64,000 nt of DNA from Treponema sp. (GTDB lineage: Bacteria > Spirochaetota > Spirochaetia > Treponematales > Breznakiellaceae), in assembly GCA_031256445.1 (NCBI GenBank), contig JAIRQN010000056.1:1-64000 (forward strand). Reading direction: 5' to 3'. This document shows, in pieces, positions 5,711 through 19,646 of this stretch. The notes beneath the pieces are model-generated. The model was not told where the DNA came from. It ran no database searches and saw only the letters and a list, made by a program, of their open reading frames with translations. Every line of letters begins with the position of its first letter. Within the stretch, counting starts at the first letter, position 1. Position numbers and translations under genes: made by a program.

Positions 5711-5719
5711 ATTTTTGAT

Positions 5720-5748
5720 GAAAAGAGCGTTTTTTAGACGCCCTTTTC
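5720..5748 (-). terminator. Hairpin downstream of the metallopeptidase operon; terminator-like but without a strong U tract
   Basis: Minus strand GAAAAGGGCGT-CTAAAAA-ACGCTCTTTTC, 11-bp stem with one wobble. Confidence 0.4.
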
Positions 5749-5766: not shown

Positions 5767-5952
5767 TCATTGCGGACCTGCGTGTGATTGAGGGTGTTGC
5801 TCTGTTGAAACCATACAATCATTTTTAAGTGCAGCTTTCACTTCTGTCTTAATGCTGTTTGTTTTATCAATTAGCATTTTTAGGTAAATGCTTCTTTGAA
5901 GACTTAAAGACAGTTGCTCTTTTGATAAAACCGCTTCTCTGCATATAATCAT
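5767..5952 (-). CDS. Small 61-aa ORF overlapping the metallopeptidase 3' end in another frame
   Basis: ATG at 5952 preceded by AAAGGAGG with 6-nt spacing; runs 100 nt beyond the peptidase stop. Confidence 0.5.
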   Translation of the reverse strand: MIICREAVLSKEQLSLSLQRSIYLKMLIDKTNSIKTEVKAALKNDCMVSTEQHPQSHAGPQ

Positions 5953-7630
5953 AATTTTCCTCCTTTGCCGGTATCCGGCTTAATATTGTTGTATCAATAA
6001 TGCCAATATCTACTGATTTCTCAATAATAAAATTCCTTATTGAGTATTGATACCTTTCTTCGTTACCTTTTGTAATATAATTTATAATTGATAGCTCAAG
6101 CGAATCCGCTCCTTGATTTAAAACATTTTGGTATTCTGCCCAGCCGTCTTTGGAGTATTTCTGTAAATAATTGATCACATTAGTCCAAAAAAAACTTAAT
6201 AGATGAAGCTCTTCCACAGAGCGGGCGTTTCTGCTTTGTTGATACATTTCATAGAGTTCGTTTTCAATGCCGTAATAATCAAGTGTTATTATTCCTGTAT
6301 CATATTCTGCGTTTTGGATAACTTCCAGTATCATATCCATAATATTTTTATATGTAGCTTGAAAGAAGCTGTATATCTGATCTTTCTCTTCTGCGAGTTG
6401 ATTAAATTTTATTGTTCCATCATCTTTTATAAAAGAGATAGCTAAACCTACAAGAACATTACTCATCAAAACCATATAAGGATTTTCATCATCCGAATCG
6501 AAGAAATTGTCAGACATATAATTATACACATGCCTGGTTGCGCGTTTTTTGTCTGTCCTGGAAATGTCAAGTACCCATGCGAAAAAACCCTTGCTTCCAT
6601 CTTCCTGGTCAACTGCCCAATCTGCCAAAGCTTCGTGGATTACGTGCAAAACTCCTCCGCCTTCTATAAAGTTGAAATGTAATGCGTGATGTATCGGCTG
6701 TATTTTCCTGTAAGAAATTTGATGCCCTCGTTCATGGGCGATGGTCGAATTTTGCATCATATCCTGAATGAATTCACCCTTAATGCCTTTTACCTGGTTA
6801 GTGGTAAAAGCGTTGTGAAGATGTAATGTTTTTCTTTTTATTCCCTCACATAATGCTGTGTTTGGAAATAATGATAAATCATTATTATCTTGATTTTCAT
6901 AAAAATTTTGCCATTTATTTTGAAAAATAGTTTTATAACTTTCAATTCGAATTATTGAGGAATTTTTATATACTTCAGCCACGATCCCACTAATAAAATG
7001 ATGAGTTCTGACAAATTCCTTTTGTATTAAATATACTTCTTCATTTTGTTCTATTTTAATTTTCTCCAGTTTACACAGAATGAACCTTGAGCCACAAGGA
7101 TAACTGTATGAGTTATAAAAGTAGAAATCTGCGTTTAATAATTCCAGTAAATCATTAATATAAGTGAAATCAGTTTGTGGATATTTCATACCTAAGATAT
7201 TTAAGTTATAATTTTGTAAATATGCCATATATTGTTCGCTTGACATACCTCCGAATTTTTTATGACATTCATCTAACTTCCTTTCCAGTCTCGTAATATC
7301 AAAGAGAGTAACTCCGCGATCGTTAGGTATGTTCAGAATACTGCGGGCTAAACAGATACTTAAAGTTAATTCATCGTATGGCTCAAAATTATTGGTCGAT
7401 TTTGTAAAATTATACATAATCAAAGCTAATTCTGTTAAATTCCTTTTTAACCATTCTAGGTTAAATTCATTAATGTTTTCTTTTGTCATTTCATAAACAA
7501 CGTCTTTACTTAAGAATTTATCTTTATTCATTAAAGCTCTTTTAACAGGTAAATTATATTTTTCTGAAAAATGTTTGTGCATTTCCTGCAACTCATCATC
7601 TTTTAATTTTGAATATACCGGTATTTTCAT
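5867..7630 (-). CDS. Putative HExxH metallopeptidase, paralogue A (unknown family)
   Basis: AHERGHQ zinc-binding motif, downstream HEALADWAVD as candidate third ligand; no signal peptide seen; many segments shared with 7649..9424. Confidence 0.65.
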   Translation of the reverse strand: MKIPVYSKLKDDELQEMHKHFSEKYNLPVKRALMNKDKFLSKDVVYEMTKENINEFNLEWLKRNLTELALIMYNFTKSTNNFEPYDELTLSICLARSILNIPNDRGVTLFDITRLERKLDECHKKFGGMSSEQYMAYLQNYNLNILGMKYPQTDFTYINDLLELLNADFYFYNSYSYPCGSRFILCKLEKIKIEQNEEVYLIQKEFVRTHHFISGIVAEVYKNSSIIRIESYKTIFQNKWQNFYENQDNNDLSLFPNTALCEGIKRKTLHLHNAFTTNQVKGIKGEFIQDMMQNSTIAHERGHQISYRKIQPIHHALHFNFIEGGGVLHVIHEALADWAVDQEDGSKGFFAWVLDISRTDKKRATRHVYNYMSDNFFDSDDENPYMVLMSNVLVGLAISFIKDDGTIKFNQLAEEKDQIYSFFQATYKNIMDMILEVIQNAEYDTGIITLDYYGIENELYEMYQQSRNARSVEELHLLSFFWTNVINYLQKYSKDGWAEYQNVLNQGADSLELSIINYITKGNEERYQYSIRNFIIEKSVDIGIIDTTILSRIPAKEENYDYMQRSGFIKRATVFKSSKKHLPKNAN

Positions 7631-7648
7631 TTAAACTCCTCCTTAGTT

Positions 7649-9424
7649 TTATGCGGTTTTTGCATGTAAATTTTCTATGATATTAATAAAATTAATATCA
7701 TGATTTGAAATTTTAATTAAACCTATCTCATCTGCTCTGGCGAAGATATACTTTCTAAGAGAAAAATTAAAATCCCCGGCTCTGTTGTTTGTAATGAAAT
7801 TTAATAAATCTAATTCGAACTTTTCGGTCTCATCCTTAAAAATATCGTTATATGATTTCCAGCCGGTTTTTTTATAATTTTCCAATTTTTGAAGAGCCTT
7901 CTTCCAGTATGAATAAGTATCTCTGTATTCTTCCAATGAAATTTCATTATTACTGCTTATGTATTCATTATATATTTCATTTTCCAATTCTGAAAAATTA
8001 ACTTTTTTGTTATCAATGTTATAATATGAACTTTTTATTACCGACATTAATTTTTTTAGGATTTTCCTTAAAGTTACTAAAAGAAAATTGTAAATATGTT
8101 CGATCTCAGATTCCAACCTTTTAAAATCAACTCTGCCATTTGAATCTATAAAACTAATAGCCATTCCAACCAAAACATTAGATAAATGAGCAAAAAATTC
8201 TTCTTCCTCGTCTACAAACCAACAGTCAGAAAGATAAAAAAAGAATTTTCTTTCAGCTCTTGAATAATCCTTTTTTGAAGTTTCAATAAATCTTTCAAAG
8301 CTCCCCTTCTTATTTCCTCTCTCAGGAGCGAGGTCGGCCATTAATTCCATTAACCCGTGGATTAAATTATCCCCCTTAACATATAGCTTTTGGAAATTTG
8401 ATTCGTCTTTAGGGAAATCTGAGTTTGCGATCAAGTGCCCAAGCTCATGGAAAACAATACCCTCTTTAATGTCAGAAATGATCTCGTTAGACAATTTTTT
8501 TACATCTTTTTGGTTGTATGCGTTTGATTTTTTTAAGGCAAATAACTTGAATCCTTCGCGTAATGCGCTATTAGGATGTTTCTGTGCGATTAAAGTTTCA
8601 AATTTTGGTTGTGAATAAAATTTATACCATTTATTGTAAAACACTACCTCTATGGCTTCCATCCTGATTTTCATTCCTTCATCATACAGTGATGCGACTT
8701 CTGATAACGTATAATTCGGCGTTCTGACATATTCACGGTTAATAAGGTGCACTTTATAACCATCAATGTCTTTTATCTCTCTCTTCCCCAGAATAAACCT
8801 GGCAACAAAAAAATTATCACTATCAGAATACATCTGATAATCAACATCCAATAAATCTATTAATTTAGGGTTTAAGTCACTAAAATAAGAAAAGTCTTTT
8901 CCAAGTATCTTTACCGGATAATCTTTAAAGTACTTAATAATTTCATCTCCTGTTAAGTCTCCTAAGTCTTTTTCCAGTTGTATTAAGCGGATACGTAAAG
9001 AAATTTCATCACTAGAAGTAACATCTATTAAATTATTTATATTGCAAAAATTTCTTAAAAATGATACAAGAGTTCTTTCCCTTCCCATATAAAAATCGCG
9101 ATAATTATTTTTTTCCATAGCTAATATCTGTAATAAAGCGAAATACTGTAAGACCCTGCATAGTTTTTCCAGAATGGCCTGATTAATCAAGTAGAAAACT
9201 CTTTCATGATCGATATTATCTGATTTGTTTAAAATAATTTTTTTTAATTTTCGTTCTTCTTTGGGAATTTTTTCATCCAATAGCTCAGGAAAATCTTTAC
9301 TTATGCCATCAATAATATAATCCAGTTCCATATCCGTTAAATCTGAATAAATACTCCATAAGCTATGTCTTGGCGGCATGCTGGTTATATGGTCTTTTTT
9401 AAGATACCGTAAATATTCAAACAT
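7649..9424 (-). CDS. Putative HExxH metallopeptidase, paralogue B (unknown family)
   Basis: FHELGHL motif, downstream LMELMADLAPE; shares REYVRT, NKWYKFY, PNSALREG, SNVLVGMAISFI blocks with 5867..7630; GGAG SD overlaps the upstream stop. Confidence 0.65.
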   Translation of the reverse strand: MFEYLRYLKKDHITSMPPRHSLWSIYSDLTDMELDYIIDGISKDFPELLDEKIPKEERKLKKIILNKSDNIDHERVFYLINQAILEKLCRVLQYFALLQILAMEKNNYRDFYMGRERTLVSFLRNFCNINNLIDVTSSDEISLRIRLIQLEKDLGDLTGDEIIKYFKDYPVKILGKDFSYFSDLNPKLIDLLDVDYQMYSDSDNFFVARFILGKREIKDIDGYKVHLINREYVRTPNYTLSEVASLYDEGMKIRMEAIEVVFYNKWYKFYSQPKFETLIAQKHPNSALREGFKLFALKKSNAYNQKDVKKLSNEIISDIKEGIVFHELGHLIANSDFPKDESNFQKLYVKGDNLIHGLMELMADLAPERGNKKGSFERFIETSKKDYSRAERKFFFYLSDCWFVDEEEEFFAHLSNVLVGMAISFIDSNGRVDFKRLESEIEHIYNFLLVTLRKILKKLMSVIKSSYYNIDNKKVNFSELENEIYNEYISSNNEISLEEYRDTYSYWKKALQKLENYKKTGWKSYNDIFKDETEKFELDLLNFITNNRAGDFNFSLRKYIFARADEIGLIKISNHDINFINIIENLHAKTA

Positions 9425-9427
9425 TTT

Positions 9428-9643
9428 TTACTCCTTTTCCCCGTTAATTTTTTCCCATAAGATGAATTCGGTACCAGGGAAATATAATTTACTCTGCTGA
9501 GCAAGCCAGGTAGACAAGGTATTAACAGGTTCAATACCAACGATGCTTTGATTCTCAGGCTGCTCGCAGGATAGCTCACAGGAATTTGTTCCCAACACCA
9601 TACAGATGATGGTCAAAAGTAATAAGGTTGTTTTGGTATTCAT
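9428..9643 (-). CDS. Small lipoprotein, 71 aa
   Basis: Signal MNTKTTLLLLTIICMVLGTNSC with lipobox-like LGTNSC; stop overlaps the SD of the next gene. Confidence 0.6.
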   Translation of the reverse strand: MNTKTTLLLLTIICMVLGTNSCELSCEQPENQSIVGIEPVNTLSTWLAQQSKLYFPGTEFILWEKINGEKE

Positions 9644-9671
9644 AATTTTTCTCCTTTATTTAATGTAAATA

Positions 9672-9701
9672 GCTGTTCCAAAATTTTAATTCCGGAACAG
9701 C
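9672..9701. promoter_or_regulatory. Intergenic hairpin (possible attenuator or terminator)
   Basis: GCTGTTCC...GGAACAGC perfect 8-bp inverted repeat between the FN3 lipoprotein and the small lipoprotein. Confidence 0.4.
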
Positions 9702-9714
9702 CGCCATAAAATAA

Positions 9715-11015: not shown

Positions 11016-11810
11016 CTATAGATCAGGAAGGCTCCCTACGCCTCCCTCAGCATGCTGTGTTCTCTGCCATGCGGTGTTTTCTTTTCCTATAACATAACCC
11101 CCTGAAAGTCTGCCAGTATTAAAATACGCTTCGTTAAAATGATAATCAGTTCCAAAAACATCATTCTCCAGTGAAACATTTGCTCCAATCTTTACGTAGA
11201 TCAGACTGTTATTGTTAAATGCGCCGCTTTTAATGTTTCTAATACTTTCCGGGATGAAAATTTCACGCAGACAGTTATCGGTAAATGCCAGTTCCTCAAT
11301 GGAAACAACGCCATTTGGGATAAAAATTTTATTCAATTGATTTTCCGCAAATACTCCGCTTTCAATAGTGGTAATGCCTTTTGGGATTGAAATGCTTGTC
11401 AGTTGATTACCTCTGAACGCGTCATACCCGATGCGGGTAACGTTATTTGAGATAATTATTTTATTCAGGCAGTTATTCCTGAATGCATCATGCCCGATAG
11501 ATATAATACTGTCTGGTATTGTAACACTAGTCAGCTTATTTTCCATAAATGAGGCATTTCCAATGGAGATTACGCTATCCGGAATATAAATTGCTGTAAG
11601 CTGCTTATCCTGAAACGCAGAATCCCCTATGGAAAAAACCGGTATTCCATCAATCGTCTCAGGTATCGCAACCGTTCTGCTTGAGCCGATGTAATCAATA
11701 ATAATAGCACCGCTCTGGTTATCCGATTGCCATTTAAAATCATCATGCCACTGTCCAAAAAGATTAGCGCAAATACTCATTGCAATTATACAAAATAATA
11801 ATTTTCTCAT
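11016..11810 (-). CDS. Secreted BspA-type leucine-rich repeat (LRR_5) protein
   Basis: Signal peptide; repeats IYIPDSVISIGNASFMENKLTSVTIPDSIISIGHDAFRNN. Confidence 0.85.
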   Translation of the reverse strand: MRKLLFCIIAMSICANLFGQWHDDFKWQSDNQSGAIIIDYIGSSRTVAIPETIDGIPVFSIGDSAFQDKQLTAIYIPDSVISIGNASFMENKLTSVTIPDSIISIGHDAFRNNCLNKIIISNNVTRIGYDAFRGNQLTSISIPKGITTIESGVFAENQLNKIFIPNGVVSIEELAFTDNCLREIFIPESIRNIKSGAFNNNSLIYVKIGANVSLENDVFGTDYHFNEAYFNTGRLSGGYVIGKENTAWQRTQHAEGGVGSLPDL

Positions 11811-11833
11811 TTTAACCCTCCTATAATATATTG

Positions 11834-12523
11834 TTATCTTCTAGTTAAAATAACATCATTGTAAAAAGTAAAATTATCAATTATTACAGAACTTGGTAAG
11901 TTGATATTTGACAAGGGATTTCCATTAAACGCCCAAGTTCCAATAATTGCAACAGAATCTGGAATATAAACGTTAGTTAAATTATTGGAAAAAAAAGCAT
12001 CATTACCAATAACTACAATAGAGTCAGGTATTATAACACTATTCAATTGCTTGCCATGAAATGCGCTATATCCGATGGATGTAACAGGAAGATCATTTAT
12101 TTTTCCAGGTATTGTTACATCTTTTTGATTACCTTTATAATTTATTATTTCAATTTCTGAAAAATCTAAAATCGCTATTTCATATTCATCATAAACAGAT
12201 AATGTAATATTGAATGTAGCAGCTTTCTTTCCGTTACTATTGTATTTTCTATACACAATAGGATAAATTGAATTTAATTCTATAATTATATTATCTGGTA
12301 TAGTTATGCCTAAAACATGATCAAATACAGCACCCCCAATAGCGGTTATATTATTAGGTATAACAATTATTCTTTCTTCCCCGATGTATTCAGTAATTAT
12401 TATCTCCCCATTATTTTTATGTACTCTAAAACCGTTTTCATCTACTTCACCTTGCGGTCCTCGGGCAAATGTTGACCAAACCGTGCCGATAAGAAACATG
12501 GTGATTAAAATTGTCTTTTTCAT
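11834..12523 (-). CDS. Secreted BspA-type leucine-rich repeat protein
   Basis: Signal peptide; VTSIGYSAFHGKQLNSVIIPDSIVVIGNDAFFSNNLTNVYIPDSV. Confidence 0.8.
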   Translation of the reverse strand: MKKTILITMFLIGTVWSTFARGPQGEVDENGFRVHKNNGEIIITEYIGEERIIVIPNNITAIGGAVFDHVLGITIPDNIIIELNSIYPIVYRKYNSNGKKAATFNITLSVYDEYEIAILDFSEIEIINYKGNQKDVTIPGKINDLPVTSIGYSAFHGKQLNSVIIPDSIVVIGNDAFFSNNLTNVYIPDSVAIIGTWAFNGNPLSNINLPSSVIIDNFTFYNDVILTRR

Positions 12524-13543: not shown

Positions 13544-13572
13544 TAGACAGAAAAAAAGGCTTTGAGTATAAT
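13544..13572 (+). promoter_or_regulatory. Sigma70-type promoter for the kinase operon
   Basis: TAGACA - 17 nt - TATAAT; SD and ATG immediately downstream. Confidence 0.65.
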
Positions 13573-13594
13573 CATTCCTGTAAAGGAGATAATT

Positions 13595-14896
13595 ATGTCT
13601 GATTATGAAGAAGGTCCAGATACAATAAGAATGTGGAATAAAGTTTTTAATACTCTTACATTGGATGAAGTAATAAGTGTGATATACGATGATTTCCCTG
13701 TTCGAGAAACAAATGAAGTGTTCATGAGTAAAATAGAAAAAAAGATGACAAAACTTGGTATAACAAAAAAAGAAGTAATAAAAAGAATTAAAGAACAATT
13801 AGGTAGGAAGAATGATACCAATGTAGATAATTGGGTTAAAAAGAAAATGGACAGAGATTCTGTTTTAAAAACAGCTTTTGGCTTAGAAATAACTTATGAT
13901 GAAACTGATGTTTATTTAAAGAAATGTCTCTACGACGGTTTTTATATGCGTGATGTAAAAGATATAATTTACAGGTTTTTTCTTAAAATGAGAATAGAAT
14001 ATAATGATGAAGTTTCAAGAAAATCGAATAATTTATTATATAAAGATCTGGAAGAAATGCTGGAAAATTATAAAGGTTTATACTTTCATAATAGTAACCC
14101 AAACCCAGACCCTATTTTGATTAAGAAAATTGAAAATAATAAATTTACTAAATTTCTTGAAGATGAATTAAAAAGAATAAAAACATTAAAGGATTTAAAA
14201 GATTACTTAGAACGAAATAAATCTTTATTTGGTTCATACCGCAGAAAAACACATGAAATATTTATGGAAAACTACGAGCAAATAGAAAATCAATTATCAT
14301 CGCAAGAAAATAGAAATATTACAAGAGAAAATGAAATTATTTTAAATGGATTATGTAGTAAATTAGAAAATACAATAATATCAATTGAAGAAAAAGAAAA
14401 AATAAAAAGAAGAATAGAAGATATAAAAAAAGGAAAAATAATAACAGAAGAAGAAATTAGAGATGAGATTGTAGATAACATATCAAATTTAGAAGAAGAT
14501 GTAATAAATCCCCGTATACGCGAACTTATTACTCAGAATATACCAAGAAGAGAAGAATTTTCTCAAATGTTAATTAAATCAGTAAAAAAAGATGGTGAAA
14601 TATATAAAAATATCGATAGAAAATTACTTATCCTAACATGGTTATCTTGTAATAATGGCGATATTACAAATTTTATTAAAGGTGAGGCAAGAGACAATTT
14701 TGAATCTCATTATAAAATAATTAACGATGATATTTTAACTCCCTGCGGAATGCCATTGCTTGACCCCCGCCATCCTTTTGACTGGATAATATTTAATGCA
14801 TTATATGCCAGTCATCTTTATAATGAAGAAGATTATATTGATGATAGTCCAAAAGAAAGACTGCGAAAACTCTTTAAAAGAATTAATAGACTATGA
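13595..14896 (+). CDS. XRE/HTH-like N-terminal domain plus helical C-terminal protein, partner of the downstream kinase
   Basis: MTKLGITKKEVIKRIKEQLGRKNDTNVDNWVKKKMDRDSVLKTAFGLEITYDETDVYLKK; C-terminal DPRHPFDWIIFNAL; SD TAAAGGAGATAATT before MSDYEEG. Confidence 0.65.
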   Translation: MSDYEEGPDTIRMWNKVFNTLTLDEVISVIYDDFPVRETNEVFMSKIEKKMTKLGITKKEVIKRIKEQLGRKNDTNVDNWVKKKMDRDSVLKTAFGLEITYDETDVYLKKCLYDGFYMRDVKDIIYRFFLKMRIEYNDEVSRKSNNLLYKDLEEMLENYKGLYFHNSNPNPDPILIKKIENNKFTKFLEDELKRIKTLKDLKDYLERNKSLFGSYRRKTHEIFMENYEQIENQLSSQENRNITRENEIILNGLCSKLENTIISIEEKEKIKRRIEDIKKGKIITEEEIRDEIVDNISNLEEDVINPRIRELITQNIPRREEFSQMLIKSVKKDGEIYKNIDRKLLILTWLSCNNGDITNFIKGEARDNFESHYKIINDDILTPCGMPLLDPRHPFDWIIFNALYASHLYNEEDYIDDSPKERLRKLFKRINRL

Positions 14897-14906
14897 AGAA
14901 AATAAA

Positions 14907-17900
14907 ATGGATACTTTGATAAATATACTTCCTAAAAAAACTCTAAAATTAAATGGTAAAAGCTATATCTTGGAAAAAGTTTTAACGGGAGGAGGTTTAT
15001 CTGTCGTTTATTTAGGCCGCGCCAAAGAAGAAGAAAAATTAAAAGATTGGGTTGTAATAAAAGAATTTTTTCCTAAAGGGTACGGTATTACACGAGATGA
15101 AAATGGTGCGCTTATTATTCCGCCTGAAAAACAGAAAGAGGTTGATAAATTAAAATTGATTGTAAAACGGGAAGTTGATATTGCGCAATATCTTCGCGAT
15201 GATCGCTCTTTTTATAAAACTGATGATAAATCAAGTAATGATTTAATATTTGAATATGATGGTCCAATAGAATCAGAAGAATATAACACTCTCTATACTA
15301 TTATTAAAACAGGATCGGGAAAAACACTATTAGAAAAAATTAATAATTTTAATGATTTTATTTCTATTTGTAACTGTGTTTTGGATATATTAACTGCTTT
15401 GGAACCGGTACATGATAAAAAAACACTTCATTTAGATATAGCGCCTGATAATATTCATATTTCTACTTCCGGAACTGTACGTTTAATAGATTATAATAGC
15501 GCTTTTAGAAAAGAGATAAGAGATGAGTTTGATAATTTAATACGCGAAAGTGATGATCTTGGTACATGGCAGCCTTCATATAAACCAGGATACTCGGCAA
15601 GAGAGCTTGAAAATTTTTCTCAAACAAAACCTATTGAGCCTGATTATCAAACCGATCTTTATTCGGTAACGGCAATTTTTTTTAGGTTACTTAAAGGCAG
15701 AACATTATTAGAAGGTGATTGGAGAAATAATAAAAAATGGCGGTTAAATAATCAAAATGGTTATTTAAAAGGTTATCCAAACAGAATAGTACAGATGGTA
15801 AATGATTTTTTATGGAAAGGAATTAATAATCATTTTAAAAATATACCAGAAATGAAAGAAGCAATAGAGATTTTAAGAAATGGAGCGGAAGAAATTAAGA
15901 AACGACATATTTATAACTTTAAATATTTTAAAAATGAGTTCTATTATTATACTAAAAAAAACGAAGGATTATACGGTAATTTGTATGTAAATAATCAACA
16001 TATTCCTATAAAATTAATTTGTAATGAATTAAGTATAAATATTATGGATTTTATTAATGATAATAATTTCCGTTATGCGTGTTTGACCGGTGAGGGTGGC
16101 ATGGGGAAAACATATACATGTATTAATTTGGGCATTAAATGTATTGACAAAGAGAAATGTGTAGTATATATTCCACTTCACGATTATGATAAGCAATATT
16201 TTATTGAAGAAAGCATAAAAGTTGCTTTTGGCATTCAATCAGAAACAGAAGATGTATATAAAGATTTAATTAATGAAGAAGAAATCTTTATCTTATTAGA
16301 TGGATACAATGAAATTAATTCAAACTATATTGATAATTTTGCTAAAGAATTCGAAGAATTATGTTCAAAGAGTTATTTGAAAATATTGATAACATCCAGA
16401 AATGATGATTATAAAAAAATTAAAAACGAACTTAATGCTAAAAAATTTGAAATGCTATCATTTATGCTTATTACTAATGAGATTATAGATGAATGGATGA
16501 AGAAATATACCTCACAAAATACTAAAGTATTGCCAAGTGAATATAATGTATTGCGTAATCCTATGTTTTTAAAGATTTATGCTTATAATATAAATGAACA
16601 AAAAAAAACTATCAACCCGGAAGATTATAATTTCCTTAAAAATCCAACAACAGCAGGTGAAATAATTTGGAACTTTTTAGAACATCAAATTATTAAGTCA
16701 GAAGAAAGCAAGTATAAAAATACTAAAGAAAATAATATAGATATAATAAGGGAAGGATTTGGTAAAATATTACTTCGTTATCTTCTTCCATGTATCGCTT
16801 ATAATATTGAAATTGATGGAAAGTTAGATTTTGAATTACCAGACTTAGAAAAGTATATAAAAAGTTTTGATAAATATTATAATGAAAACAATAATATTGT
16901 TCCTGATTTTATTAAATATAAAAGTACTATTAACTATTTCTTATATAAATTAGATGATAGAGCAAATTGCTTGATAGAGCAATGTACAAAATATTTCTGT
17001 ATAGTATATGAATCAGGTGAAACTTACACATTTACCCACCAATATTTTAGAGATATTTTCTCAGCAACTCATATTAAAAACCAAATGGAATTAATTTGCA
17101 AAAATAAATCCATAGATATATCTGTATTTACACAAAAAACATTTCTTCCTCATATTATACAAATGCTGTCACAAATATTACAGGAACATAAAAAAAAACC
17201 TCCAAAATTTAATAATTCAGTTTTAAGAGAATATATTCAAAAATTAAAAGAAATATTTAAAGAAAAAAATGATGAAGAAATACAAAGATGTGTATTTAAC
17301 AGTCTTGAGATAATTAATTATGCCAGAAATGGAAATATGAGCCATGAAGATTTCTCTGAATTGGATTTAAGAGCGTATAATTTTAATAATATTATTTGCG
17401 ATAATACTAAATTTATAAGATCTTGTATATCAAAGAATACATTCTTTGCAGATGGACATGATTCTATTGTAAGAAGTGTCAACTACAGTCCTAATGGAAC
17501 TTATATTGTTTCAGCCTCAAATGATAAAACTGTAAAAATATGGGAGATATACACCAGAAAATTATTACATACTCTTAGTGGACATTTAAATTCTGTTTTT
17601 AATGCAATATTTAGTCCTATTGATGGAAAATATATTGCTTCTGTATCATGTGAAGCAATCATATTATGGGATAGGGTTAGCGGGAAACAATTATATGAAC
17701 CTATTAAAGGTGATTTTAGAAATGTACTTGATATAAGTTTTAGCCCTGATGAAAAGTATATTGCTTCGTCTTTCCTTGATAAAAATATAAAAATATGGGA
17801 AACTACGACAGGTAATCCCTGTACGATAGGAAATGAGATTTTTACAGGAAATGTAGAATATTTGTATGACGATACATCTGTTTTTTCTAATCTTTGGGAT

Positions 17901-19646
17901 AATTCATATAAGGTATTTATAAATCATAATGGGAGAAATATTGATATTTTTAAGAATTTTTTAAATTATGATGGTTTTTTTTCTATTAATAATAAAGGTT
18001 ATTTGACTATACATTGGTTAAAAGAAAAAAGTAAAGCTATAAATAGTGATATAATAGAAAAATTAGATCAAGAAGTACATTCTTTTAAACAAATAGAATA
18101 TAGTTCCAATGGGAGATATATATCTTTTATAACTAAAAAAGATTTTTTAATTATAAAAGATATAGAAAACAATGAAAATACTTACGCTAAGCAAAGTAAA
18201 AAGGCTATTTACAATGCAAGATTTGCCCCAAAGTCTGAATACATCATTTTAGGTTTATCTGATGGCACTATTGAAGAATGGGATATTATACAAAGAAAAA
18301 TAAAACGTGTATTCGGAAACAAGTGTGATTATACTTTAAATAATGTGAATTTAAGTCGGGATGGTGAATTTATTATAATGTCAACAAATGATGATATTAT
18401 TATGTTAAAAAATATTAAAAGAGAATGCTTAATTAATTACTTTGAAGGTTCTAATGCGTTTTATAGTCAAAATGATAATTATTTTTTTATTATATATAAA
18501 AACATATTAAGTATATATGATAATTTTGAATATAAATTAATAAAAAATTGTCCCCACTATCTTTATAATATTTATCCTGATTATATAGAATTTGCAAAAT
18601 GTTCATCTAAGAGTAATTATATAGCTACTGTATCAAAAAAAAGAATAACAATATGGAAATGTAAAAATGGTGAAAATATAAATTTCTTTGAACATTATGA
18701 AACTAGAGATGTACAATTCAGTCCAGATGAAAATTATATTCTTGTAACCAATAATGATTATATTAAAATATATAATATACATGATAAATCATCTGAAGTT
18801 CTCAAAGATTCAAGTACTGCCTATTCTGCACAATACTCGCCAAACGGTGAATTAATTATTTATGCTCAAGGAATAAATATATATGTTTATGATATAAAAA
18901 ATAAAACAACTAGAAAAATTGACGGAAAAGCAGGTAGTGACAATGATATCAACTGGTTTAGTGTACAAGATTTATGTTGCGGTGCAGATATTCAAAATAA
19001 AAATGGAAATCAAACTGATCAACTAATTATTGGAATTTTACATGGTTATAATAATGTATTAGAAGAGAACAGAAATGAAGTAAAAATATGGGATATTGAA
19101 ACAGGTAATTTAATACCTTTTTTTGATGAAAGTATTAATTGTGATTCAATATCAAAAATTAAATACAGTCCCAATGGTTTACATCTCATTGTATTTTACG
19201 AGAGAAAAGGAATGAAAATATTTTATCTGCAATGGATATGGTCAAAAGAAAATGGTACATACAGACTAGAAAAAGTAATTAGTTCGGAACTTAAGCGTTT
19301 TACTGATGAGATGAATGCTTTATCTAATGATATTTTAGAAGATATTAACTTTAATTCAAATGGTAGATATATTTTTTATTATATTAATAGTTTTAAATCT
19401 TTTATGAATAGCTTTTTTTTGAATACCTATTTTAAGAATAAATATATAAGCAATTTTATTAGGATATGGGATGTTTTTGAGGATATATTATATGATTCGA
19501 TATATCCTGTACAATTTTTGAAAGTTATTAAAGCCGATTTTACAGAAATAGAGCAACCTAAAGATTTTACTGTATATGATTGGGATAAATTAATAAGGGT
19601 ATTAAAACAAAATGGAGCTATTTTAAATGAACAGATTGACAATTAA
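14907..19646 (+). CDS. Protein kinase - P-loop STAND/NACHT-like NTPase - WD40 repeat protein
   Basis: Kinase: LTGGGLSVVYLG, VVIKEFFP, LHLDIAPDNI, LIDYNS. NTPase: GEGGMGKT, IFILLDGYNE, ILITSRND. C-terminal WD40-like blades (VNYSPNGTYIVSASNDKTVKIWEI etc.). Start taken at MDTLIN, 10 nt after the upstream stop. Confidence 0.85.
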   Translation: MDTLINILPKKTLKLNGKSYILEKVLTGGGLSVVYLGRAKEEEKLKDWVVIKEFFPKGYGITRDENGALIIPPEKQKEVDKLKLIVKREVDIAQYLRDDRSFYKTDDKSSNDLIFEYDGPIESEEYNTLYTIIKTGSGKTLLEKINNFNDFISICNCVLDILTALEPVHDKKTLHLDIAPDNIHISTSGTVRLIDYNSAFRKEIRDEFDNLIRESDDLGTWQPSYKPGYSARELENFSQTKPIEPDYQTDLYSVTAIFFRLLKGRTLLEGDWRNNKKWRLNNQNGYLKGYPNRIVQMVNDFLWKGINNHFKNIPEMKEAIEILRNGAEEIKKRHIYNFKYFKNEFYYYTKKNEGLYGNLYVNNQHIPIKLICNELSINIMDFINDNNFRYACLTGEGGMGKTYTCINLGIKCIDKEKCVVYIPLHDYDKQYFIEESIKVAFGIQSETEDVYKDLINEEEIFILLDGYNEINSNYIDNFAKEFEELCSKSYLKILITSRNDDYKKIKNELNAKKFEMLSFMLITNEIIDEWMKKYTSQNTKVLPSEYNVLRNPMFLKIYAYNINEQKKTINPEDYNFLKNPTTAGEIIWNFLEHQIIKSEESKYKNTKENNIDIIREGFGKILLRYLLPCIAYNIEIDGKLDFELPDLEKYIKSFDKYYNENNNIVPDFIKYKSTINYFLYKLDDRANCLIEQCTKYFCIVYESGETYTFTHQYFRDIFSATHIKNQMELICKNKSIDISVFTQKTFLPHIIQMLSQILQEHKKKPPKFNNSVLREYIQKLKEIFKEKNDEEIQRCVFNSLEIINYARNGNMSHEDFSELDLRAYNFNNIICDNTKFIRSCISKNTFFADGHDSIVRSVNYSPNGTYIVSASNDKTVKIWEIYTRKLLHTLSGHLNSVFNAIFSPIDGKYIASVSCEAIILWDRVSGKQLYEPIKGDFRNVLDISFSPDEKYIASSFLDKNIKIWETTTGNPCTIGNEIFTGNVEYLYDDTSVFSNLWDNSYKVFINHNGRNIDIFKNFLNYDGFFSINNKGYLTIHWLKEKSKAINSDIIEKLDQEVHSFKQIEYSSNGRYISFITKKDFLIIKDIENNENTYAKQSKKAIYNARFAPKSEYIILGLSDGTIEEWDIIQRKIKRVFGNKCDYTLNNVNLSRDGEFIIMSTNDDIIMLKNIKRECLINYFEGSNAFYSQNDNYFFIIYKNILSIYDNFEYKLIKNCPHYLYNIYPDYIEFAKCSSKSNYIATVSKKRITIWKCKNGENINFFEHYETRDVQFSPDENYILVTNNDYIKIYNIHDKSSEVLKDSSTAYSAQYSPNGELIIYAQGINIYVYDIKNKTTRKIDGKAGSDNDINWFSVQDLCCGADIQNKNGNQTDQLIIGILHGYNNVLEENRNEVKIWDIETGNLIPFFDESINCDSISKIKYSPNGLHLIVFYERKGMKIFYLQWIWSKENGTYRLEKVISSELKRFTDEMNALSNDILEDINFNSNGRYIFYYINSFKSFMNSFFLNTYFKNKYISNFIRIWDVFEDILYDSIYPVQFLKVIKADFTEIEQPKDFTVYDWDKLIRVLKQNGAILNEQIDN

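Follow-up and report, generated by a model that had tools for sequence, protein, structure and literature searches.

We examined a 64,000-nucleotide stretch of a Treponema sp. genome (assembly GCA_031256445.1, contig JAIRQN010000056.1, positions 1 to 64,000; hereafter the window), in which two adjacent minus-strand genes encode large HExxH proteins, A and B, that by their sequences form part of a new, sporadic and unclassified protein family. Read along the minus strand, the locus consists of a hairpin, a small open reading frame (ORF) of 71 amino acids (aa), ORF B, ORF A, a 61-aa ORF and a second hairpin (Table 1). An earlier note, made from this sequence without database searches, had described both large ORFs at this place as members of one operon, with a small lipoprotein coupled upstream and a small ORF nested at the 3' end. 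The placement of the large ORFs on the minus strand is confirmed. A single operon of the 71-aa ORF, B and A is plausible, given that the hairpin at 9702-9671 sets the unit apart from the gene for a fibronectin type III (FN3)-domain protein upstream and that the intergenic gaps are about 4 nucleotides (71-aa ORF to B) and about 19 nucleotides (B to A). The 71-aa ORF has an AGGAG site and no family match in profile scans; its N-terminus is lipoprotein-like, but the lipobox (TNSC) is poor. The 61-aa ORF does share 86 nucleotides with the 3' end of A and has its own AGGAGG site; the note had taken it as incidental, yet it recurs with the enzymes. Near the locus there is no Rfam family and no tRNA.

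A and B are indeed tandem paralogues, with 30% identity over 564 alignment columns (BLASTP E=1e-71), and every conserved block quoted for them (REYVRT/KEFVRT, NKWYKFY/NKWQNFY, NSALREG/NTALCEG, HELGH/HERGH and SNVLVGxAISFI) is contained in the alignment. Both keep HExxH with a downstream acidic residue, as do all 11 members of the family, including the one from a distant taxonomic family. HExGH is invariant among them and is followed, 30-36 residues past the second His, by a Glu in the context E-x-x-A-[DE]-x-A; in A and B this Glu (Glu333 and Glu360, respectively) lies 30 residues past it. Loss of HExxH in homologues, which the note had named as evidence against its proposal, was not seen. Other invariant positions include E231, R234, R254, N264, S399, E440 and W507 (B numbering), and the proteins are roughly 470-790 aa long. 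Neither A nor B has an apparent signal peptide when the N-termini are read by eye, in agreement with the note. Orthologues in two related genomes, G543 and G571, are under purifying selection, with nonsynonymous over synonymous divergence (dN/dS) of 0.127/0.648 and 0.212/0.847. Taken together with the invariant motif, this makes A, B and their relatives look like active enzymes. Two His and one Glu are the pattern of gluzincins, and we infer that A, B and their relatives are zincin-like metalloenzymes of the cytosol, in which two His and one Glu would hold one metal.

Table 1. Positions in the window of the genes, sites and hairpins of the A/B locus.
Feature	Position	Strand	Evidence
Terminator-like hairpin between the unit and the upstream FN3-domain protein gene	9671-9702	-	14 bp stem
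71-aa small ORF, lipoprotein-like, just ahead of B at the head of the unit	9428-9643	-	AGGAG site
ORF B, HExxH protein of 591 aa	7649-9424	-	Paralogy with A; AlphaFold2 model
HELGH codons of B, residues 326-330	8435-8449	-	HExGH invariant in 11/11; predicted helix 312-335
Glu360 of B, candidate third metal ligand	8345-8347	-	Invariant in 11/11; predicted helix 354-364
ORF A, HExxH protein of 587 aa	5867-7630	-	Paralogy with B; AlphaFold2 model
HERGH codons of A, residues 299-303	6722-6736	-	HExGH invariant in 11/11
Glu333 of A, candidate third metal ligand	6632-6634	-	Invariant in 11/11
AGGAGG ribosome-binding site of the 61-aa ORF	5959-5964	-	CGGCAAAGGAGG also present in G015
61-aa small ORF, putative precursor peptide	5767-5952	-	AGGAGG site common with G015; BLASTP to the G015 61-aa ORF
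Stem-loop 3' of the 61-aa ORF, terminator-like in the window	5717-5748	-	RNA fold

The view of A and B as members of an unrecognised family is borne out by our searches, which returned no curated model, no PDB fold and, beyond a bare motif, no PDB sequence. In hmmscan searches neither protein could be placed in a family of Pfam, NCBIfam, PADLOC or PHROGs. No named Pfam or NCBIfam peptidase family scored above its curated cut-off and no Pfam peptidase family matched at E<=1, so the confident match to a well-described peptidase family that would have spoken against the note is lacking in these two collections. A profile search of PDB sequences recovered, apart from one weak and unrelated match, nothing but fragilysin, and that by its bare HExxH motif (E>=0.11). 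Weak matches were also found to NF045620 (the Sfum_1244 family, 339 aa, function unknown), in about the same register for B (E=0.0018) and A (E=0.016). The best of these, 20.9 bits (E=1.4e-4) for a B fragment with HExGH, compared with 14.1 bits for the fragment without it, does not come near the 150-bit cut-off; scans of the remaining nine members gave no match, nor did the NF045620 profile match in 20 relatives and 14 control genomes. On this sequence likeness, NF045620 and the A/B family may share a fold and motif.

AlphaFold2 models, which rest on five sequences each, are mostly helical for both B (predicted local distance difference test, pLDDT, 73.7; predicted template modelling score, pTM, 0.72) and A (pLDDT 72.0, pTM 0.70). 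HExGH and Glu360 of B each fall within a predicted helix (Table 1). This arrangement resembles that of clan MA gluzincins (M78 ImmA/IrrE, M48, M49), which have HExGH in a helix and a Glu on the following helix in an ExxA[DE] context, but the likeness is one of motif, with no match in Pfam (E<=1) or Foldseek (E<=0.001). HExxH with a downstream Glu, the gluzincin criterion, is found in 11/11 members at the sequence level. Since for the gluzincins the motif alone agrees, and since the profile of the alpha-ketoglutarate-dependent (alphaKG) HEXXH enzymes finds no member, we have not filed A and B in any named family. It is possible, judging from the models, that their fold is not yet in PDB; a Foldseek search of the B model against viral models gave nothing usable.

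The family is sporadic. It is present in 3/40 genomes of the genus and 6/202 genomes of the taxonomic family, and in one genome of a distant family (G244) among 395 sampled across the phylum. Two of the relatives are Treponema sp. and apparently termite-gut metagenome bins, as read from their isolate names. Scanning genome contigs with one short motif, a weak test outside the phylum, returned only two Treponema records, and a tblastn search with B found nothing in plasmids and phages. One further candidate, L005 of G020, was dropped as a chance match in a radical-SAM-like protein. Five loci are well flanked (window, G015, G034, G543 and G571). Adjacent pairs of HExxH genes occur in all of these except G015, which has a single copy, as does the distant G244; on the short contig of G462 a pair and a single copy cannot be told apart. 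Pairing is common, then, and not obligatory, and the question raised by the note of whether A and B always occur together is answered in the negative. A and B may be a heteromeric or substrate-specialised pair, as the note proposed. Phylogenetically, the G034, G543 and G571 first copies form one group (84/87), and A and the single copy of G015 another (93/93), with most deep branches unresolved; one ancient duplication into first and second copies received no support. An extra C-terminal region of about 200 aa, ending RPDEFML...DxxFLE, is present in the G015 copy (L003 1378-3678) and the second copies of G543 (L023 2182-4527) and G571 (L024 4930-7287), and absent from A and B.

What recurs with these genes is a small ORF. 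In 5/5 well-flanked loci an ORF of 54-61 aa with a ribosome-binding site adjoins the HExxH gene or genes (54 aa in G034), and a hairpin lies directly 3' of it. The AGGAGG of the window ORF lies within CGGCAAAGGAGG, and the identical string is found at the 61-aa ORF of G015. These two peptides match each other in BLASTP (E=2e-5) and in phmmer run on the complete set of 569 ORFs from the G015 locus (E=0.009), and both end VSTEQ-x-P-x-S. The G543 and G571 peptides are likewise homologous (phmmer 5e-21). Our claim from these comparisons is of two homologous pairs with an equal position, rather than of one proven family. A profile of the five peptides found strong matches only in the five enzyme-bearing genomes among 202, where, as it was built from those five, just the absence elsewhere is informative. 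The perfect AGGAGG common with G015 and the strong hairpin 3' of its stop make the 61-aa ORF of the window look like a real gene.

The hairpins were folded over 45-67 nucleotides past each small-ORF stop. That of the window reaches -15.8 kcal/mol, with 0/200 shuffles as low (z -5.1); the z values of G015 (-6.9) and G034 (-4.8) are similarly clear, and those of the GC-rich G571 (-2.1) and G543 (-1.2) less so. Compared with random windows of the same locus, the hairpins of G015, G034, G543 and G571 are in the lowest 1.5%; that of the window is not, its stem being cut by the 45-nucleotide frame. Stem sequences differ between loci and the position is kept. In G244, where we looked after the pattern had been seen elsewhere, a 57-aa ORF with a GAGG site (L017 922-1095) is followed, 8 nucleotides past its stop, by the start of a hairpin (z -4.6), which is suggestive of a locus resembling the other five.

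The order of small ORF, hairpin and enzyme gene in G015, G034, G543 and G571 is also what one would expect if the small ORF were the leader peptide of a transcription attenuator, with the hairpin as its terminator and no separate product. The small ORFs of G543 and G571 (L023 6208-6393 and L024 8967-9149) have a dS of 0.24, far below the 0.65-0.85 of the neighbouring enzymes, which hints at RNA-level constraint over this ORF and would suit such a leader. In the window, however, both enzyme genes come first and the small ORF and hairpin last, 3' of the genes they would have to attenuate, and 54-61 codons are long for an attenuator leader. We consider this explanation quite unlikely.

In layout, a divergent small ORF with a strong start site, set off by a hairpin from one or two large enzyme genes, matches a precursor made in excess over its processing enzymes, as in operons for ribosomally synthesized and post-translationally modified peptides (RiPPs). 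We tentatively favor, at somewhat short of an even chance, the reading of the locus as a precursor-peptide cassette, in which cytosolic zincin-like enzymes cut or modify the small peptide. It draws support from the motif in 11/11 members, the purifying selection, the recurring small ORF, the two peptide pairs, the confinement of strong peptide matches to genomes with the enzymes, the hairpins, the sporadic distribution and the cassette's place upstream of the AI-2E transporter gene, and as a statement of function it rests on gene layout in five to six loci. The small ORF would then encode a precursor peptide, variable in its C-terminal part, on which the enzymes act, and the hairpin would let this peptide be made in excess over the enzymes, acting as an attenuator where the peptide gene is first (G015, G034, G543 and G571) and as a terminator where it is last (window). 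Cleavage of the peptide is thought most likely, with modification as the other option, and two enzyme copies could serve successive steps, separate steps or work as a pair. The stronger proposal, that this is a new class of spirochaete ribosomal peptide cassette in which one or two undescribed HExGH enzymes, possibly of a new fold, act on a small and fast-evolving peptide, is possible but doubtful. Known RiPP operons share with these loci the small, fast-diverging ORF, the strong ribosome-binding site, the hairpin before the enzyme genes and the sporadic distribution, but no enzyme class, leader family or exporter known from RiPPs is common to the A/B loci.

Several observations weigh against the precursor-peptide cassette. 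Leave-one-out profiles recover only the G543 and G571 peptides, those of the window, G015 and G034 not rising above noise. The G543/G571 peptide, with dN 0.27 and dS 0.24, gives no clear sign of protein-level selection, although its last 30 codons alone lean that way, on 9 changes. Foldseek found no zincin fold, and no PDB match at E<=0.001, for either five-sequence model. The G244 locus is ambiguous: were the enzyme to start at the ATG at 1076, which has a good ribosome-binding site, its gene would include the hairpin. Finally, no transporter or other modifying enzyme is common to the loci, the radical-SAM gene being near G571 only. In the absence of any other common neighbor, the minimal unit would be peptide plus enzyme.

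The first of these points also fits a reading of A and B as general or protein-specific cytosolic metallopeptidases (housekeeping, regulatory or conflict-related), with the small ORFs as passengers, activators or inhibitors. The zincin-like motif is in all members, and the neighbors vary by locus (M23-like, Trypsin_2, FGE-like, radical SAM), both as this alternative would have it. Set against it are the small ORF and hairpin, which recur in 5/5 well-flanked loci, and the two strong peptide pairs, which track the enzymes; it seems to us rather unlikely, if deserving of serious weight. Sporadic spread, fast divergence and adjacent genes would equally be expected of a toxin-antitoxin or effector-immunity pair, in which the small protein neutralizes the HExxH enzyme. 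There is, however, one small ORF per two enzymes and no PADLOC match, and such a pair appears very improbable. If the locus is a precursor-peptide cassette, its product would most likely be a signal or an antagonistic peptide, a role suggested by the sporadic spread and divergence.

Among HExxH proteins, for which peptidase was long the usual annotation, peptide-modifying oxygenases have lately come to light, and A and B could be of this kind, hydroxylating or oxidatively cutting their peptide as alphaKG-dependent HEXXH enzymes do (IPR026337/TIGR04267; PflC, PosC, BpmH, ChlBH and Os1350). In Pseudomonas, two such enzymes with a small precursor gene next to them, PflC and PosC, act on their peptides by hydroxylation and oxidative cleavage; PflC is in addition able to hydrolyse a truncated peptide, and the fold of these enzymes resembles that of zincins (PMC12636437). 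A similar arrangement of small precursor and HEXXH enzyme is found for Os1350, which is encoded beside an 85-aa precursor (PMC7726476). The A/B family, in contrast, has no TIGR04267 match for any member in NCBIfam at E up to 5-10, its proteins are larger and often paired, and no nitroreductase, multinuclear non-heme iron-dependent oxidative enzyme (MNIO), acetyltransferase or transporter is common to its loci. The known alphaKG-HEXXH enzymes need oxygen, whereas gut treponemes are mostly anaerobes and the host here is probably one. An oxygenase is, on this evidence, an unlikely alternative. Within a precursor-peptide cassette, hydrolytic processing seems more likely than oxidation, given hosts that are probably anaerobes and the ExxA[DE] motif around the downstream Glu; we would put hydrolysis at no more than modestly better than even and oxidation at a minor share. 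If the cassette is real, spirochaetes that are probably anaerobic would have a further HExxH family, seemingly unrelated to the alphaKG-HEXXH enzymes, with ties to a small peptide gene. That would make it possible to test cleanly whether peptide maturation has recruited the zincin scaffold more than once, and would give a lead to ribosomal peptides of termite-gut Treponema. The enzyme family is new, and its link to the peptide is testable.

The surroundings of the cassette differ from genome to genome. In five relatives of the genus, a gene of about 345 aa, 39-48% identical among them, lies just upstream of an AI-2E transporter gene; in the window the cassette occupies its place, and the gene has no match anywhere in the 64 kb. 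This difference, along with the sporadic distribution, suggests that the cassette region is accessory and exchangeable. The protein of about 345 aa (L062, L064-L067) has an N-terminal signal-like segment.

The G015 enzyme gene is directly followed by the start of an M23-like protein (by eye), and the G543 genes have a Trypsin_2 protein and an FGE-like protein (the latter by eye) as neighbors. Past the G571 pair, L024 625-4827 (minus strand) encodes a 344-aa protein, a 420-aa radical-SAM protein (Pfam 1.6e-10), with ScmE/ScmF peptide maturases as its best weak matches, and a NAGPA-domain protein; these genes possibly belong to the G571 cassette. Past the G034 pair lies a 150-aa protein (L007 4518-4970, minus strand) with a retropepsin-like DTG motif and a weak Asp_protease_2 match (E=0.11). 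Large lipoprotein-like proteins with Gly-rich ends are encoded near the cassettes of G034 (L007 9106-10797, minus strand) and G015 (L008 6501-8222, plus strand); both look MACPF-like by eye, with a weak match in L008 alone (BSAP5a pore-forming toxin family, E=0.33). In G462, an LRR-like protein is encoded just past the HExxH gene (L020 511-1107, by eye). The neighbors in the window are FN3 and LRR_5 proteins, two adjacent LRR_5 (BspA-type) proteins being encoded upstream of the FN3 protein at 11016-12523 (minus strand). Farther along, a 444-aa ORF (13562-14896), which matches nothing in Pfam at E<=0.01, overlaps the start of a gene (14796-19646, plus strand) for a eukaryote-like protein of 1616 aa, with a protein-kinase domain and WD40 repeats.

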